The position numbers and the translations under genes were made by a program. A DNA stretch of 64,000 bases, from the NCBI RefSeq assembly GCF_002215035.1, contig NZ_NKFP01000006.1, forward strand, positions 2,633,080-2,697,079, read 5' to 3'. The notes below the pieces were generated by a model that was not told the DNA's origin, ran no database searches, and worked only from the letters and a program-made list of their open reading frames with translations. Position 1 is the stretch's first letter, and every line of letters begins with the position of its first letter. This stretch comes from Leptolyngbya ohadii IS1. Lineage in GTDB: Bacteria > Cyanobacteriota > Cyanobacteriia > Elainellales > Elainellaceae. This document shows positions 4,533-10,728 of this stretch, in pieces.

Positions 4533-4689
4533 TGGACTCCTGTGGGAGGCAGAGCAATTATTAGGCGTGAAGCTTGAGAAGGTGGATGATTTGCGCCCTC
4601 ACCTGCCTGGGGAGCTGCGCGATAACCTGGGGACGAACAAACGATTACAGGAAGCGGTTGAGTGGCTGAAATCTCAAAAATTGCAATAA
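4513..4689 (+). CDS. Short conserved-looking protein, 58 aa
   Basis: ATG at 4513 to TAA at 4687-4689 gives 58 residues beginning MTYRSRDGLLWEAEQLL and ending EWLKSQKLQ. A GAGG at 4502-4505 provides a Shine-Dalgarno at good distance, and the gene overlaps the end of the winged-helix gene, as expected in a compact phage operon. It is predicted to be helical and charged, with no membrane segment. I do not recognise it. Confidence 0.55.
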   Translation: MTYRSRDGLLWEAEQLLGVKLEKVDDLRPHLPGELRDNLGTNKRLQEAVEWLKSQKLQ

Positions 4690-4761
4690 ACGGCAGAATG
4701 CGGGTTCCAGACTCGATCGTTTGAACTACAATTAGCCTGAAACCTTTGACAGGCGATGATT

Positions 4762-5037
4762 ATGAACAAAGGCGAACTGGTAGACAAAATTGCCGAAAAA
4801 GCAAGCGTCACCAAAAAGGAAGCGGATGCCGTTCTGACGGCTGCGATCGACTCCATCATGGAAGCCGTGGCAGAAGGCGACAAAGTGACCCTGGTGGGCT
4901 TTGGTTCTTTCGAGCCACGCAAGCGGCAGGCACGGGAAGGGCGCAACCCTAAGACGGGCGAGGCGATGACAATACCTGAAACGACCGCCCCTGCATTTTC
5001 GGCTGGGAAAATGTTCAAGGAAAAAGTTTCGCAGTAG
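4762..5037 (+). CDS. hup: HU-family DNA-binding protein
   Basis: A 91-residue HU/IHF-family protein, full length. It shows the N-terminal dimerisation helices (MNKGELVDKIAEKASVTKKE), the VTLVGFGSFEPRKRQAREGRN turn and DNA-binding arm, and the PAFSAGKMFKEKV C-terminus, all typical of HU. The second ATG (4762) matches the usual HU start; an ATG two codons earlier (4756) is possible. It has its own transcription unit, ending in a terminator at 5068-5090. In a prophage it may assist integration, packaging or transcription architecture, but a chromosomal-type HU function is equally possible. Confidence 0.92.
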   Translation: MNKGELVDKIAEKASVTKKEADAVLTAAIDSIMEAVAEGDKVTLVGFGSFEPRKRQAREGRNPKTGEAMTIPETTAPAFSAGKMFKEKVSQ

Positions 5038-5067: not shown

Positions 5068-5090
5068 ACGCTCCGTGAGGGGCGTTTTTT
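5068..5090 (+). terminator. Rho-independent terminator after HU
   Basis: A seven-base-pair stem (ACGCTCC, loop GTGA, GGGGCGT) is followed directly by a T run. It lies 30 bases after the HU stop, in the right orientation. Confidence 0.85.
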
Positions 5091-5325: not shown

Positions 5326-5994
5326 ATGCCTCAAATCAAGATTCAGCAAATCCAGACCGATCAGCTCAATCCCTACTCCAACAACATCAAGCAGCATCCA
5401 CCAGAGCAAATCGAAAAGATTGTGCGCTCAATTGCTGAGTTTGGCTTCACTGTGCCAATTCTGGTGGATGGCAATTTTGAGGTCATCGCGGGTCACGGAC
5501 GACTGGAAGCGGCGAAACAGATGCACCTCAAGTCTGTGCCCTGCATTGTGCGAGATGACCTTTCGGCTGCTCAGGTTAAAGCACTGCGAATCGCTGATAA
5601 CCGCATCGCTGACGATGGAGCCTGGGACGAAGCCGCATTGATGGCGGAACTGGCAGAACTGGCAGAACTGGAATATGACCTGACGCTGACGGGCTGGGAC
5701 GAAGCTGACCTGACAGCGTTCGATGAGCCAGAAACCGAATATCAGGAACGGCAGACGATCGGCACTGCTCCGCGAATGCCTGCAATCGAGCGGCAGACCG
5801 ACGATGAGCCGGACGGCGATGATCTGGCAGACGAGCCACCAGAGCAGCCAGCTCCCCCACCAGCAGGCGATAAATACCCCCTGTCGATCGTTCTCAGTTC
5901 GGGCGAACTGAAGGAATGGAAGGCTTTTAAGGAATCGATTGATGAACGGCAGGACAAGACAGCATTTCTGAAATTGATGAGGGGAGAAGTATGA
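5326..5994 (+). CDS. ParB/sulfiredoxin-fold (ParB-N) phage protein
   Basis: A 222-residue protein. Residues about 10-90 match the ParB N-terminal fold: LNPYSNNIKQHPPEQIEKIV, the box VIAGHGRLEAAKQM (equivalent to the GERR nucleotide-binding loop, with GHGR), VPCIVRDDLS and KALRIADNRIAD. The C-terminal 90 residues are an acidic, Pro-rich tail ending in a helical segment (ELKEWKAFKESIDERQDKTAF). Phage ParB-N proteins usually sit near terminase or DNA-modification genes and lack the centromere-binding half of chromosomal ParB, as here. It overlaps the radical SAM gene by four bases, so the two are made together. The activity (nucleotide hydrolysis, nuclease or DNA modification) cannot be decided from sequence. 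Confidence 0.88.
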   Translation: MPQIKIQQIQTDQLNPYSNNIKQHPPEQIEKIVRSIAEFGFTVPILVDGNFEVIAGHGRLEAAKQMHLKSVPCIVRDDLSAAQVKALRIADNRIADDGAWDEAALMAELAELAELEYDLTLTGWDEADLTAFDEPETEYQERQTIGTAPRMPAIERQTDDEPDGDDLADEPPEQPAPPPAGDKYPLSIVLSSGELKEWKAFKESIDERQDKTAFLKLMRGEV

Positions 5995-7253
5995 CAGAGA
6001 GTTCTTTGGGCGTGTACTGGGGCGGTTTCCTACTTAATTCGATGGCTCCGGTCGAAGTCCACCTTAATGCCTGTAGTCACCAGTGCGGATATTGTTTTGC
6101 CCTCCTAAATGACCCCGATCGCCGTGCCAACGCTAAGCAGATCTTCAGTCTCCTGTCCGAACTCTGGCAGCAAAACGACAAAGGCGAGTGGAAACGATCG
6201 AGCTATGCCGCCCATTTGCTCAGAGAAGGCTACCCAGTCGTCATCTCGAACCGAGTAGACCCGCTCGCAGCGAATAATGTATCGATCTCCCTGCCACTCA
6301 TCGAAACCCTGACAGCGATGGGCATTCCGGTCAATGTTTTGACCAAGTTCGGCAAGCGCAAGGATGTAGAGCAGCTATTTGATACGCTCGATCGTCCTAC
6401 TGGGTTCTACGTCTCCCTTGCCAGCCTCAACCCTGACATCATCCGCAAATGTGAACCCGGCGCACCCTTGCCAGAAGAACGGCTGCAATTCATCCAGGAA
6501 GCTGTGAGCCGTGGTCATGCGGTATCGGTTGGCATCAACCCGATCGTCCCCGGCTGGATTGATGATCCGGTGGCTATAGCCAAAGCGGTGAAGGACGCAG
6601 GAGCCAGCGGCATCCAGCTCGGCAAGTTGCATTTCTCGAAGAAACAGCTTGAGAATATGCCTGCCAGAGATAGGGCGGCATTGGGAGAGGCGGCAATCGC
6701 CTCCGGTCTGAAGTCGAAAGCTGACCCGGCTCTGGATGAGCTGTACTCTGCCGTTGTCGAGGCTGTAGCGAGCGTTGGACTCCAGACCTACACCAGCCAG
6801 CAGGGAGAGCGATCGGACGCATTGACGGCGGAATATGGCTGCTATCCGAAGCGGTTTCCGACGATGCAAGAGTTTGTGAACCACTGCCATGACACGCTGA
6901 AAGATGGCGACTTGATTCTCTGGGAAGACTTCCGCGATTTCTTCCTGCCTCGCCTGCCGGAGGGTGAGTGGGGATTGCGTGACCACCTGAACGCGATCGC
7001 CGCTCAAAACTCGCTCAATGGGCTGTACATTCCGCAACGCATGACTTATCACGAATTGCTGTGGCACGTCTGGCAGCACACGGGAACGATCGTGTGTCCT
7101 GCGAACGTGGAGTGCTTCGCCTGGGCGGGTGACCCAATTCCCGGCAAAAGGAATTCTTGGATACGGGTAGAAGATGCAAATCAGATGCCCATCCTTGTAT
7201 TCAAGCCAGGAGGCACCAATGGACAGGCATACACTGCCGAACATCAACTATGA
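5991..7253 (+). CDS. Prophage-encoded radical SAM enzyme
   Basis: A 420-residue protein. The motif CSHQCGYC (residues 28-35, CxxxCxxC) binds a [4Fe-4S] cluster that cleaves S-adenosylmethionine. The following core has the alternating strand/helix pattern of a partial TIM barrel, with VVISNRVDPL, IPVNVLTKFGKR, FYVSLASLNPD and VSVGINPIVPGW strands resembling the spore-photoproduct-lyase / Rv2578c branch. The C-terminal 140 residues form an extra domain with Trp- and His-rich segments (YHELLWHVWQH, ECFAWAGDPIPG). It overlaps ParB-N by four bases, and the first small Gly-rich gene starts inside its 3' end. The substrate is unknown; DNA/RNA or the downstream small proteins are candidates. Confidence 0.85.
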   Translation: MTESSLGVYWGGFLLNSMAPVEVHLNACSHQCGYCFALLNDPDRRANAKQIFSLLSELWQQNDKGEWKRSSYAAHLLREGYPVVISNRVDPLAANNVSISLPLIETLTAMGIPVNVLTKFGKRKDVEQLFDTLDRPTGFYVSLASLNPDIIRKCEPGAPLPEERLQFIQEAVSRGHAVSVGINPIVPGWIDDPVAIAKAVKDAGASGIQLGKLHFSKKQLENMPARDRAALGEAAIASGLKSKADPALDELYSAVVEAVASVGLQTYTSQQGERSDALTAEYGCYPKRFPTMQEFVNHCHDTLKDGDLILWEDFRDFFLPRLPEGEWGLRDHLNAIAAQNSLNGLYIPQRMTYHELLWHVWQHTGTIVCPANVECFAWAGDPIPGKRNSWIRVEDANQMPILVFKPGGTNGQAYTAEHQL

Positions 7254-7485
7254 CGAACTGGAGCAATGCGGTCGAGGGAAGGGAGGTAAAGCAGGCGGGA
7301 GTAAAGGTGGCTCACGCTCGATCGGAAGCCAGATGAGAGACATGAACTTTGCTGAAGGTGGGCGATCGCAGCGACTACGAGAGGAAAGAGCGGCATTCGG
7401 TCAATACGCCGGACTTGCTTCGATGTATGGTGATGCCACCCTACGCCGCCGCTCTCCGAATACATCTAGGCTACGGCTGGGCTAA
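7219..7485 (+). CDS. Tandem small Gly/Lys-rich single-Cys protein, copy 1
   Basis: An 88-residue basic protein. The start at 7219 follows AGGAGG at 7208-7213, a strong Shine-Dalgarno, and lies inside the end of the radical SAM gene. Residues about 6-32 (LPNINYDELEQCGRGKGGKA, then GGSKGGSR) are nearly identical to the N-terminus of the next gene; the rest is Arg-rich and diverged. There is one cysteine, inside the conserved block. A conserved N-terminal block, a variable C-terminus and radical SAM proximity resemble the arrangement of modified-peptide precursors, but a DNA-binding packaging protein is also possible. I know no described family. Confidence 0.75.
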   Translation: MDRHTLPNINYDELEQCGRGKGGKAGGSKGGSRSIGSQMRDMNFAEGGRSQRLREERAAFGQYAGLASMYGDATLRRRSPNTSRLRLG

Positions 7486-7497
7486 GAGGGAAAAACA

Positions 7498-7785
7498 ATG
7501 CAAGCACTTCCAGCCATCAGCTATGAAGCGGCGGAGCAATGTGGCAGGGGTAAGGGCGGAAAAGCAGGCGGCAGTTCAGGCGGTAGCCGTCCGGCAAGCG
7601 GCGATCGTCTGGGCTTAAACAATCGCGGTAGAAGCCCAAACTCTCCTTTGTCTGGAGCTGAAGCCGAAATCGCCAGCCGCGCTCTAGCCCGTCGCCTCAG
7701 CGCCCAGGGGCAACGCAATACTCTAGCAGCACGCTCACAGACTCGTGGGGTTAGCCCTGACCTCACCTTTGGCAGAATCCGATAA
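7498..7785 (+). CDS. Tandem small Gly/Lys-rich single-Cys protein, copy 2
   Basis: A 95-residue basic protein, a diverged tandem copy of the preceding gene. It shares LPxIxY, the exact 14-residue block EQCGRGKGGKAGGS, then GGSR; the C-terminal 60 residues are Arg/Ser/Ala-rich and predicted helical (AEAEIASRALARRLSAQG). It again has one cysteine in the conserved block. It is 12 bases after copy 1 and is followed by a terminator at 7807-7838, so ParB-N, radical SAM and both small genes look like one transcription unit, separate from the terminase operon. Confidence 0.75.
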   Translation: MQALPAISYEAAEQCGRGKGGKAGGSSGGSRPASGDRLGLNNRGRSPNSPLSGAEAEIASRALARRLSAQGQRNTLAARSQTRGVSPDLTFGRIR

Positions 7786-7806: not shown

Positions 7807-7838
7807 ACGATCGTCTCTACCGGGGGCGATCGTTTTTT
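7807..7838 (+). terminator. Terminator closing the radical SAM/small-protein operon
   Basis: The inverted repeat ACGATCG ... CGATCGT (7807-7813 and 7827-7833) is followed by six T. It separates the radical SAM cassette from terminase. Confidence 0.75.
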
Positions 7839-7901
7839 GTGAGTAGGTGAAAGTAGGAACGATTGGGGCAGGAATACCCCAGGTTTGTCCCAATCTGCCC
7901 C

Positions 7902-8381
7902 ATGTCTGAAAGCCTTGCTCTAACTGAGAAACAGCTTGACGCGATCGCCCTTCTTGCCTCCGGTAAGTCCCAGGTTGCCACAGCAAGGGACATCGGAGTG
8001 GACAGGAAGACGATCGCTCGCTGGATGGCAATTGCCGAATTTAATGCCGAACTGGAGCGGAGACGATCGCGGCTTCAAGAGCAGCACATCTCCCAGGCTG
8101 ACGCACTGCAAGACGAAACGATTAGCCAGTTCTACCAAGACCTGAAGGCATACCGAGAGGCACGGCTCAACATCTACCGAGCCAAACTTTCCAGGGCGGT
8201 AGACATTTTGAAAAAAGCCGGACGGCGGTTTAACGATTTACCAGATGAGGCGATCGCTCCCGGCAGCCTGGTCGGACTCTTTAGCATCGCAGACCAACTC
8301 TCTGAATCCGGGCTGAACGGCTGGGCTGAGATTCTGGCAATTGATGAACTGTTGAAACGACTGGAAGGCAATGGCGAGTAA
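7902..8381 (+). CDS. Terminase small subunit-like protein
   Basis: About 159 residues. The N-terminal helix-turn-helix (LTEKQLDAIALLASGKSQVA, GVDRKTIARWM) is the DNA-binding domain that recognises packaging sites in small terminases; the rest is helical and suited to oligomer formation. I chose the ATG at 7902 (MSESLALTEK) over a TTG at 7863, since the domain begins right after it. It overlaps the large-subunit start by 11 bases, which supports the assignment. Confidence 0.8.
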   Translation: MSESLALTEKQLDAIALLASGKSQVATARDIGVDRKTIARWMAIAEFNAELERRRSRLQEQHISQADALQDETISQFYQDLKAYREARLNIYRAKLSRAVDILKKAGRRFNDLPDEAIAPGSLVGLFSIADQLSESGLNGWAEILAIDELLKRLEGNGE

Positions 8382-9711
8382 GGCAGCACTGAGCCTGGTG
8401 CATGGGCGGATGAGAGAGCAGGCGATCGCGGCAGTCTCCGGCACGATGAAACAACAGCGGGAGAAATCATCGGCAGGCGATCGGGTAAATCTGGCGGCGA
8501 AACTAGTCGAAGGGCTAACCGACTGGGCAAAGCCATTGATGCAGCCCAAGCGCTATAAATGCCTGTATGGTGGGCGCGGGTCTGGCAAGTCGTATGCGGT
8601 TGCCGATGCCCTGCTCATTACTGGGTTAACTCGCAAGATTCGGGTACTTTGCGCTCGCGAATTCCAAAACAGCATTAAGGATTCAGTTCATGCCCTGCTA
8701 AAGGAGCGAATTGCAGAACTGAAGCTGGAGAGCTTCTACAGAGTTCAGGAAGCGGCGATCGTTGGTGTGAACGGTTCACAGTTCATCTTCAAAGGAGTTC
8801 GGCTCAATGTGCAGTCGGTTAAGTCGATGTCAGGACTAACCCACTGCTGGATTGAGGAAGGGCAAACCATCTCTGCTGAATCGTGGCAGGTGCTAATCCC
8901 CACCATTCGAGAGGAAGGCTCTGAAGTTTGGGTCACATTCAACCCACTGAATGAGTCCGATACGGTTTATCAAGAGTTAGTAGCAACGCCGCGATCGAAT
9001 GCCTACGTTGAGCGCGTCAACTGGGACAGGAACCCCCATTTCCCAAAGGTTCTGGACGATGAACGGCGGCATATGCAGGCAACTGACCCGGACGCTTACT
9101 ATCACATCTGGGAAGGCGGATTCTGGGAGAAATCGGATGCTCAGATTCTTGCCGGGAAGTGGGTGGTGGATGACTTCGAGCCTGGGGAGGACTGGAACGG
9201 ACCTTATTTCGGGGCTGACTTCGGATTCGCCAAAGATCCCACAACTCTCGTCAAATGCTGGGTGCATGGCAATCGGCTCTATATTGAGCGCGAATCGTAT
9301 GCCGTGGGACTGGAGATTGACTGCACTGCCGATCGGTGGAAGCTGGATGTGCCGGGGTGCGAAAACTTTGTGGTTCGCGCTGACTCTGCCAGACCTGACT
9401 CAATCTCCTACCTGAAGCGACACGGCATCCACCGTATTGAGGGAGCTGCTAAGCGAGCCAACAGCGTAGAGGATGGCATCGCTCACCTGAGAAGCTACGA
9501 AAAGATCGTGATTCATCCCAGGTGCAAGCGCACGGCAGAGGAGGCACGGCTCTACAGCTACAAGACCGATCGGCTCACGGGCGATGTGTTGCCGATCGTC
9601 CTGGATGCCCATAACCACTGCATTGATTCCCTGCGGTATGCCTTGGAGCCAATGATTCGCCCGATCGCCCCAGTTCGCCGCTATTCTCCTACAGTGGCTC
9701 GGAATTGGTAG
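8371..9711 (+). CDS. terL: Terminase large subunit (PBSX-like)
   Basis: A 446-residue packaging motor. The ATPase half has Walker A GGRGSGKS (residues about 67-74), Walker B LTHCWIEEG (about 152-160) and coupling motif VTFNPL. The C-terminal RNase H-like nuclease half has acidic motifs in GADFGFAKDPT, RADSARPDS and HNHCIDSLRYAL. The family is PBSX/SPP1-type large terminases. Both domains are intact. Its stop TAG is directly followed by the stop of the convergent HNH gene. Confidence 0.95.
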   Translation: MASKAALSLVHGRMREQAIAAVSGTMKQQREKSSAGDRVNLAAKLVEGLTDWAKPLMQPKRYKCLYGGRGSGKSYAVADALLITGLTRKIRVLCAREFQNSIKDSVHALLKERIAELKLESFYRVQEAAIVGVNGSQFIFKGVRLNVQSVKSMSGLTHCWIEEGQTISAESWQVLIPTIREEGSEVWVTFNPLNESDTVYQELVATPRSNAYVERVNWDRNPHFPKVLDDERRHMQATDPDAYYHIWEGGFWEKSDAQILAGKWVVDDFEPGEDWNGPYFGADFGFAKDPTTLVKCWVHGNRLYIERESYAVGLEIDCTADRWKLDVPGCENFVVRADSARPDSISYLKRHGIHRIEGAAKRANSVEDGIAHLRSYEKIVIHPRCKRTAEEARLYSYKTDRLTGDVLPIVLDAHNHCIDSLRYALEPMIRPIAPVRRYSPTVARNW

Positions 9712-10566
9712 CTAGAGCAAAGGAATCTGACTATAGGTAGCCTGCGTCTTTCCCAGTACCTTGAGAATGGCTTGCCATCGCTTCTTAGAGTAGAACGATT
9801 GCTGGACGTACCACTGGTAGGCATCCCGATCACCTTTTGAGCTGTTGCACGATCGACAGCAAGGGAGCAAGTTGTTTAGTGCCTCCGGTCCACCGACGTT
9901 AAGAGCAATAAAGTGGTCAATCGTTAGCTTCTTGTTGGTGCTAGAGCAGTAAGCACATGAATTTTGAAACTGCTGAAACCTATACTTCAACTGCTCTTGG
10001 CTGTAGGGAGCTTGGTAAACCGATCGCCGATTGGCTTTGCGTCTGCGTTCGCGTTCACGATATCTCGATTTGTTTGCAAAATAATGCTGCGATCTGACCA
10101 GCCTGATTCTGGACTTGTTGGTGTGGTAGTAGAGCTTTTGACGTTCTTTCGGCTTTCCAGTCTTCCTTTCTTCCTTGCGCCTGGAGGCAATCGCCTCTCC
10201 ATTAGCTCTGCGATACTCAATCGCCTCCAATCTCAATCGCTCCCTGTTTTGCTCTCGATACGTCTTGGCGTACTCTAATCGGGCTTCACGCTCCTTCTGG
10301 TATCGAGCTTTGCTTATCTGTGCAAACTTTTGGCGGTTACCCTGATATCTATCTCTCCTGTACTGATTAATCCGGTCGCGGTTTTCAGCACAGTATTGCT
10401 TCCTTCGCTCTCTATTAAGGGCTTGTCGATACCTAGAGCATTCCAGGCACTCATTGTTTTTGATGTACCTGACGCTTCTACCGTCTCCGTAATCGTGCTT
10501 CCGTCTGCACAGTATGCCGAGATGAAACTTGCTTGGGTCAAAACCCAAGTCACCTAAACTATTCAT
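9712..10566 (-). CDS. HNH homing-type endonuclease 1
   Basis: About 284 residues. A Cys-rich N-terminus (LCRRKH ... CLECSRYR) is followed by a long, highly basic helical region rich in Arg/Lys/Tyr, probably wrapping DNA. The C-terminal HNH nuclease has CAYC, LTIDHFIALNVGG, NLLPCCRSCNSSKG. I chose the ATG at 10566 because AAGGA lies at proper spacing and is too close to the ATG at 10572. It is reversed between terL and portal, a common site for free-standing homing endonucleases. Its stop codon abuts the terL stop (TAG/CTA), so insertion left terL intact. Confidence 0.88.
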   Translation of the reverse strand: MNSLGDLGFDPSKFHLGILCRRKHDYGDGRSVRYIKNNECLECSRYRQALNRERRKQYCAENRDRINQYRRDRYQGNRQKFAQISKARYQKEREARLEYAKTYREQNRERLRLEAIEYRRANGEAIASRRKEERKTGKPKERQKLYYHTNKSRIRLVRSQHYFANKSRYRERERRRKANRRSVYQAPYSQEQLKYRFQQFQNSCAYCSSTNKKLTIDHFIALNVGGPEALNNLLPCCRSCNSSKGDRDAYQWYVQQSFYSKKRWQAILKVLGKTQATYSQIPLL

Positions 10567-10728
10567 AGCCATGTCCTTACATAACTAAGGGAATGGTCAG
10601 CGATCGCCATCTGTTACCAGCAGAATGGCGATCGCGCTCTACCAATTATAGTCTGAAACGCTGACTCTGCAAGGTTTTGGGCTGTCATACTGAAGTGGGA
10701 ATCATGAGCAGGTAGCCGCAGTAAGCTC
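10567..10728. other. Gap between HNH 1 and portal gene
   Basis: A 162-base gap holding a short inverted repeat with HIP1 sequences (GCGATCGCCATC at about 10599-10610 and GATGGCGATCGC-type at 10626-10637), probably a hairpin, plus the start region of both divergent genes. If HNH 1 is a recent insertion, this is where its right border lies. No promoter can be named. Confidence 0.4.

Follow-up and report, generated by a model that had tools for sequence, protein, structure and literature searches.

The window, as the whole analysed stretch of 64,000 nucleotides from contig NZ_NKFP01000006.1 of Leptolyngbya ohadii IS1 is called here (positions 2,633,080 to 2,697,079, forward strand), contains a prophage cassette of four genes encoding a ParB-fold protein, a radical S-adenosylmethionine (SAM) enzyme (rSAM) and two small basic proteins that share an N-terminal tag. 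The reading that we favour, at a probability of about 0.45 and judged from sequence, is that the rSAM recognises and modifies the tag and that tagged proteins travel in the virion. The anatomy of the cassette, the recurrence of tags, the link between tag and rSAM lineage and the domains carried behind the tags were observed directly. As we picture the mechanism, the ParB-fold protein and the rSAM, encoded beside the terminase genes, would work with proteins bearing a phage-specific, basic, glycine-rich N-terminal tag. The rSAM would most likely recognise this tag and then modify the tag or something joined to it, and the tagged proteins would most likely be packaged in the virion in association with DNA and enter the next host with it. 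No description of an rSAM-tag system was found in the open-access literature searched. Within that literature, and with searches not all aimed at the layout, the statement of an earlier sequence-only reading that no system of this layout was known still stands.

The cassette and its tagged proteins

The gene order and coordinates given by the sequence-only reading held. The first gene (5326–5994, + strand) encodes a ParB/Srx-fold protein that is kin, by ParB_N, PHROG and PADLOC matches, to the ParB part of phage ParB-DNA methyltransferases. An ATGA overlap joins it to the gene of the 420-aa rSAM (5991–7253, +), which was assigned by profiles, an AlphaFold2 model and fold matches. Small basic protein 1 (7219–7485, +; 88 aa, isoelectric point (pI) 10.5) starts inside the 3' end of the rSAM gene. 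Its best start is the ATG at 7219, with AGGAGG just 5' of it within the same 3' end, and the longest reading of the frame is a 103-aa open reading frame (ORF) from 7174. Small basic protein 2 (7498–7785, +; 95 aa, pI 11.7) follows after a 12-base gap.

The identical block reported for the two small proteins, EQCGRGKGGKAGGS, was confirmed at 7261–7302 and 7534–7575 (both +) by comparison of the copies. All 14 residues are the same; 8 of the 42 bases and 7 of the 14 codons differ, every change being synonymous, which points to constraint on the protein and not to a fresh duplication. Each of the two proteins has one Cys, as had been noticed, and this is not general, since 17 of 26 tagged proteins lack Cys; a thioether from a tag Cys was rejected on this ground. 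The Pfam scan of the two proteins gave no match, nor did a search of named phages, and EQCGRGKGGKAGGS as a DNA pattern had no match in viral or genome contigs. A protein search of the own genome returned the block at these two places and two other, weak matches (E 0.3 and 0.8). Across the phylum, the small proteins had weak matches at E 0.1 in 34 of 386 genomes, which we took, going by the match table, for glycine-rich look-alikes.

Relatives of the cassette were collected with the rSAM. The single window sequence found little in viral or genome contigs and only its own copy in 386 genomes of the phylum; the rSAM was present in 3 of 36 genomes of the order, the own genome included. Six rSAM queries of named phages (E limits 0.01 to 1e-8) gave weak core matches at most (Dulem virus 36, YuA-like phages, bicaudaviruses) or none, and a plasmid search gave 16 weak partial matches. 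A profile built from five sequences was used for viral relatives (best 80 of 91, forming 79 loci, of which 31 weak ones, L161–L191, were left out). In the class it matched 7 of 388 genomes; length and score mark five of these as true relatives, and the two core-only matches were dropped. Loci in which the rSAM could be aligned from end to end, or was truncated where the contig stops, formed 17 near groups: the window; L115; L113; L130; G390 (L107, L114); G412 (L111, L116); L117/L148; G554 (L118); L119/L120/L121; L029/L032; L123; L124; L125; L127/L149/L158; L128; L129 (cut); and G557 (L196, cut). The distant set consisted of 21 of 24 contigs, leaving out L132 (87% identical to L131 over 3.1 kb) and L159 and L160, in which an intact motif ORF was sought and none was found.

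The cassette is no single case: an rSAM of this kind was found near the packaging genes of many uncultured phages. Tagged basic neighbours were clear in 12 of the 17 near groups and weak in 2 more. The tags are basic, glycine-rich N-termini, much alike within one phage and different between phages. In seven groups a tag was repeated inside one phage: MASKGGSWK(S/G)G in four copies in G412, MAASGG(T/I)W in two in L117, MAS(S/G)AVRxKxGxxFG in three in G554, MAGQDW(R/K)KNKKGF in two on each of two contigs and one on a third in the L127 group, ENLQCG in two in L113 and two in L130, and QCGRGKGG in two in the window. The tag MAARGGHWSK was found with different cargo in L119/L120 and L121. In these nearly identical phages, the space between the ParB and rSAM genes holds a tagged gene in L121 and none in L119 and L120, so that gain and loss of tagged genes may be rapid. 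One tag each was found in L029/L032, L123, L125 and G557 and a weak candidate in L124 and L128, while the contig of L129 ends inside the rSAM. A glycine-rich protein of L115, with no Pfam match, was rejected as a tagged neighbour on sight as tail-type. The motif KGGSW in one tag class raised the possibility of a crosslink of the streptide type, a chemistry that joins Lys to Trp; it was rejected, as the window tags contain no Trp.

Among 13 pairs with the tag gene downstream, 12 tag genes start −35 to +16 bases from the rSAM stop, and that of L128 starts at 111. The first 40 residues of the tag proteins contain 19% glycine on average, compared with 6% in 184 other ORFs, a difference that comes partly from selection. 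The 26 tagged proteins for which pI was calculated all fall at 9.0–12.0. A shared N-terminal block with an unlike remainder (pair score at least 80, remainder below 40, cut-offs set after the data were seen) was present at 6 of 22 rSAM loci, near-duplicates included, and at 1 of 74 control terminase loci, none of which carries the rSAM. An automated test for glycine-rich starts, with criteria set after the tags were seen, was positive for 13 of 18 near loci and 5 of 21 distant loci, and the five distant ones look like chance frames.

Tag, enzyme lineage and cargo

In the rSAM tree, built without the truncated L129 (contig end) and L196 (cut rSAM), the window, L115, G390, L113 and L130 cluster (100/100), and QCG-type tags were found in this cluster only. 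The large terminase subunits (TerL) group otherwise. They put L029/L032 and L123 with the window, L119 with L113/L130, L115 with G412, L124 with G554 and L127 with L125; more weakly, they also tie L115 to the window, L128 to L113/L130 and L117 to G412. The window and L029/L032 have the small terminase subunit (TerS), TerL, portal and capsid in common (capsid E about 1e-140) and differ in rSAM clade and tag. The window and L113/L130 share the rSAM clade and the QCG-type tag and differ in TerL.

A permutation test was made, without the same two loci and the tagless L115 and G390. With the 10 loci that have all genes, tag similarity was correlated with rSAM similarity at r 0.354 (168 of 5000 permutations as high), with ParB at r −0.011 (2560/5000) and with TerL at r −0.049 (2822/5000). 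With 11 loci after the close pairs were cut, the values were 0.352 (116/5000) for the rSAM and −0.03 (2642/5000) for TerL. In this small test the signal is modest, and it suggests that tag similarity follows the rSAM. When the viral collection was scanned with three tag classes (1, 3 and 3 contigs), all six contigs with the tag at a gene start carried the rSAM. In the seventh, L201, a 13.7-kb stretch without the rSAM, the match lies about 100 residues into an ORF opposed to its neighbours and looks like chance. The patterns had to be specific for searching, so that looser tags without the rSAM could be missed. We consider it likely that tag and rSAM belong together. The proposal that the small proteins are partners of the rSAM was thus strengthened by tags that recur beside homologous enzymes, follow the rSAM lineage and, in the scanned classes, are confined to contigs with the rSAM. 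No small-protein homologue lacking the rSAM was found, only specific tag patterns being searchable.

Shared N-termini are also known from phage T4, whose Alt and internal proteins carry a capsid-targeting sequence. The tags might be signals of this kind, read by the scaffold or capsid, with the rSAM a mere neighbour that has its own task. One N-terminal signal on several unlike proteins was found in seven groups within one phage and in one more across near-identical phages; Alt-like ADP-ribosyltransferases (ARTs) are among these proteins, and the genes adjoin the terminase in the window, G412, L029/L032 and others. The small basic proteins and the ART cargo are further points of likeness to T4. 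However, the tag follows the rSAM and not the terminase lineage (in the 10 or 11 loci; in the 13 with close pairs it follows TerL as well), the window and L029/L032 differ in tag despite their common capsid and portal, the scanned tag classes occur only with the rSAM, and an rSAM and a ParB stand alongside. We regard this explanation as rather improbable.

The proteins behind the tags include known enzyme and DNA-related domains, and some of these enzymes are of host-modifying kinds. An ART stands behind the tag in three lineages, G412 (Pfam E 1.4e-14), L117 (3e-9) and L130 (8e-7). Two tagged ARTs have their best phage match in a minor head family (phrog_16619, E 1e-24) and a virion structural family (phrog_21789, E 9e-18), and the Alt-like phrog_802 was matched by two ARTs. 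A NUDIX domain was found behind the L117 tag (Pfam E 1e-12), a DnaJ domain behind the L125 tag (E 3e-9) and a ParB_N fold behind tags of L127 (E 2.4e-4, under the cut-off) and of the L158 contig (2.6e-16); the remaining tagged proteins scanned gave no convincing match. In L117 (1288–2811), the C-terminal half after the NUDIX domain resembles a HipA/PI3-type kinase by eye, with no Pfam match there. An untagged relative of a tagged ART was sought, and only the same contig was returned. The cargo of the window, two small Arg/Lys-rich proteins, resembles simple internal head proteins.

Phage ARTs and Nudix proteins have been reported as frequently virion-packaged (PMC9503650), and ParB domains are reported to occur among injected polyvalent proteins (PMC5512222). 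The ART and NUDIX cargo is thus of kinds packaged by other phages, which supports the view that tagged proteins are delivered in the virion. The likeness to these systems lies in ART, Nudix and ParB domains near head or packaging genes; in the passages concerned, packaging is inferred from head-protein fusion or gene context and no shared tag appears (PMC9503650, PMC5512222). The term "radical SAM" is absent from the main texts of both articles.

An rSAM that adjoins small proteins, each part conserved and part variable, also recalls systems for ribosomally synthesised and post-translationally modified peptides, in which the small proteins would be precursors and the modified cores would be released as bioactive peptides. 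The precursor pattern is present here. However, the cargo reaches 751 aa and includes whole enzymes, no protease or transporter/exporter is present among the four genes between the terminator-like stems, and Pfam gave no SPASM or recognition domain on the three rSAMs scanned. Such a system is very unlikely.

The enzyme, its ParB partner and the untagged loci

The CxxxCxxC motif CSHQCGYC noted before was confirmed in the rSAM by alignment (residues 28–35; 6072–6095, +); its three Cys are invariant in 17 aligned rows, and it lies in a partial TIM-barrel core, as defines the radical SAM superfamily. The match to Pfam Radical_SAM (E 8e-5) is under the cut-off of that model. The AlphaFold2 model has a mean predicted local distance difference test score (pLDDT) of 90.7 and matches 73 solved chains at Foldseek E at or below 0.001, the top ones being radical SAM enzymes. 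The last 155 residues (266–420; 6786–7250, +) form a domain of their own with pLDDT 83.4. Its FVNxC-type motif is present in the aligned near-clade rows, and the domain differs in the distant set. The fold search with this domain gave only Z 2.3–3.2, with several winged helices by title; a fold absent from the listing is possible.

The enzyme belongs to no curated family among the models scanned. The nearest ones, NCBIfam Rv2578c (NF038135; 57.7 bits, cut-off 430, partial profile) and PA0069 (NF033668; 39.8 bits, cut-off 360), scored far under their cut-offs, and viperin was rejected (E 0.043 to NF038283). Two enzymes tied as best matches of the predicted core fold: pyruvate formate-lyase (PFL)-activating enzyme, at Z 17.7 over 224 residues with a root mean square deviation of 3.3, and spore photoproduct lyase, at Z 16.9 over 238 residues with a deviation of 3.5. 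The rSAM profile found nothing below E 0.2 among Protein Data Bank sequences and no spore photoproduct lyase chain. In a comparison by hand, the position that we take to be the catalytic Cys of spore photoproduct lyase seems to correspond to the nearly invariant Asn87 of the rSAM. Likeness to spore photoproduct lyase, Rv2578c and PA0069 lies in the rSAM core, whereas the low scores, the C-terminal domain and the phage unit with ParB and tags set the window enzyme apart. PFL-activating enzyme acts on a glycine in a peptide; the window enzyme has no sequence match to it, the window unit has no glycyl radical enzyme, and likeness of fold shows no function.

The ParB-fold partner matches Pfam ParB_N (E 1.6e-9), phrog_620 (1.2e-50), the DNA methyltransferase family phrog_498 (1.2e-46) and, over residues 4–145, PADLOC MTase_II (3.4e-35). 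A defence system was rejected, as PADLOC gave this ParB-MTase_II match and a weak NUDIX-PDC-S07 match in L117. Phage ParB-DNA methyltransferases have the same kind of ParB domain; in the window its partner is the rSAM instead, and Pfam, PHROG and NCBIfam scans found no methyltransferase domain fused or adjacent in the four-gene unit. Under a strict rule, which asks for ParB no more than 1.5 kb upstream of the rSAM, 11 of 18 near loci and 18 of 21 distant loci qualify, tagged or untagged. L032, L124 and L157 fail the rule by longest-ORF overlap only and L135 and L153 lie at contig starts; no ParB adjoins the rSAM in L113, L125, L127 and L158, and in L130 it is downstream.

These observations make room for another explanation, in which ParB guides the rSAM to modify phage DNA close to where packaging starts, as methyltransferases linked to ParB modify DNA, and the tagged proteins bind the modified DNA and travel along. 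It agrees with the kinship of the ParB protein, with its position upstream of the rSAM regardless of tags and with the basic nature of the tagged proteins. In L028 and L031, relatives by terminase, C5 and N6/N4 DNA methylases are encoded upstream of TerS (an integrase intervenes in L031), and together with the ParB partner they made the DNA-modification branch of the sequence-only reading stronger. A weakly similar rSAM of phage YuA, annotated "DNA repair photolyase", lies near a putative deoxyuridylate hydroxymethyltransferase gene and presumably takes part in base hypermodification. Thymidine hypermodification uses a hydroxymethylase, a nucleotide kinase and a pyridoxal phosphate enzyme with an rSAM. 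However, the YuA enzyme is only 24% identical over half of the L125 enzyme. Eight YuA neighbour genes had no homologue in 35 loci (534 kb with overlaps), where YuA gp12 does find rSAMs; gp11, gp13, gp14 and gp17 gave 0 homologues at E 1e-3 among ORFs of at least 70 aa in the window and 34 loci, some of these phages being partial. Tag similarity does not track ParB, and a DNA mark alone leaves the differences of tags between phages unexplained. DNA modification ranks next after tag modification and is, in our judgement, doubtful.

Several observations weigh against tag modification. L115 and G390 carry the rSAM and no tagged neighbour was found there, and the 21 distant contigs have the rSAM, mostly with ParB, and no convincing tagged protein. 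The ParB-rSAM pair probably has an older job, possibly on DNA. In L119–L121, L125 and L149/L158 the tag gene does not directly follow the rSAM, and single-copy tags were assigned by composition and place. Only Gly and Lys/Arg are evident in all tags, hence no modified site is evident, and the C-terminal domain of the rSAM has no assignable fold. A Mu F-like head protein is common to L130 and the window (E 5e-54); it is also present in L123, L125 and L127, which bear other tags. With 13 loci, TerL too tracked the tag at r 0.578 (1/5000), a value lifted by two close pairs, as is that of the rSAM in the same loci (r 0.703, 0/5000).

In the distant set (L131–L157), the ParB gene lies directly upstream of the rSAM, often with a 4-base overlap of the ATGA type, and the pair mostly stands before terminase genes of several kinds. 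At nine distant loci the next large gene was a terminase above cut-off in six (L136, L139, L141, L146, L147 and L157; Terminase_3, Terminase_6 and GpA), a terminase match below cut-off in L133 and L156, and without match in L138. A search of 50,697 named phage records with three distant-set rSAMs gave no match at E 1e-8. The untagged groups and the untagged distant set indicate that tag modification is not the universal job of the ParB-rSAM pair; the pair is probably the older element, to which one clade has added the tagged proteins. In G390 the rSAM is followed directly by an opposite-strand gene, and the terminase (Terminase_6N, E 7e-16) comes some 6 kb later (L107 15874–17199, − strand; L108 1547–3034), so the cassette is set apart from the terminase there. 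L151, L154 and L155, set apart for their cut rSAM, are relatives of L130 with a like terminase; their rSAM breaks off at one and the same position, neither tagged gene is present, ParB is mostly missing, and the L154 and L155 stretches are identical. This co-loss is weak evidence, because the upstream ART is missing from L113 too.

Prophage setting and possible meaning of the tags

Downstream of the cassette lie TerS (7863–8381, +; phrog_3218, E 9.5e-10) and TerL (8371–9711, +; Pfam Terminase_3, E 8e-41), followed by a portal-like protein (below cut-off), a Mu F-like head protein and capsid protein E, and an integrase gene lies upstream; the region is thus a prophage. An HNH endonuclease gene (9712–10572, −) stands between TerL and the portal-like gene, and a tRNA-Leu (caa) gene (4638–4724) lies between the integrase and HU genes inside the prophage region. 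The HU-like DNA-binding protein (4756–5037, +; Pfam Bac_DNA_binding, E 7.7e-33) is encoded upstream of the unit, and an HU gene is likewise upstream of ParB-rSAM in G390 and L029. Stem scans found terminator-like stems upstream of the ParB gene (5068–5085, +) and after the unit (7807–7833, +; 12 pairs and a T run), so that the four genes look like one unit. Of the single transcript proposed earlier, the terminator-like stem at 7807 was present; the number of stems (4, compared with a shuffle mean of 4.3) and of promoter-like sites (2, compared with 1.7) was at chance level.

A bolder form of the tag hypothesis, taken as a whole, is a long shot. In it, ParB would position the rSAM on phage DNA next to the site where packaging begins, and the rSAM would join the tag covalently to DNA or a base. 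Effectors such as ARTs would then be packaged and injected as protein-DNA conjugates, and each tag would be matched to its rSAM, the two being exchanged between phages as one module.

A second question, posed by the untagged distant set, is what role the older ParB-rSAM pair has by the terminase. If the tag reading is true, phages would own an enzyme-read address tag for injected proteins that is independent of head-protein fusion, and a phage radical SAM family without known substrate would be explained. The tag would then be a handle for finding new injected effectors, and the enzyme-tag pairs would be swappable means of loading proteins into capsids.

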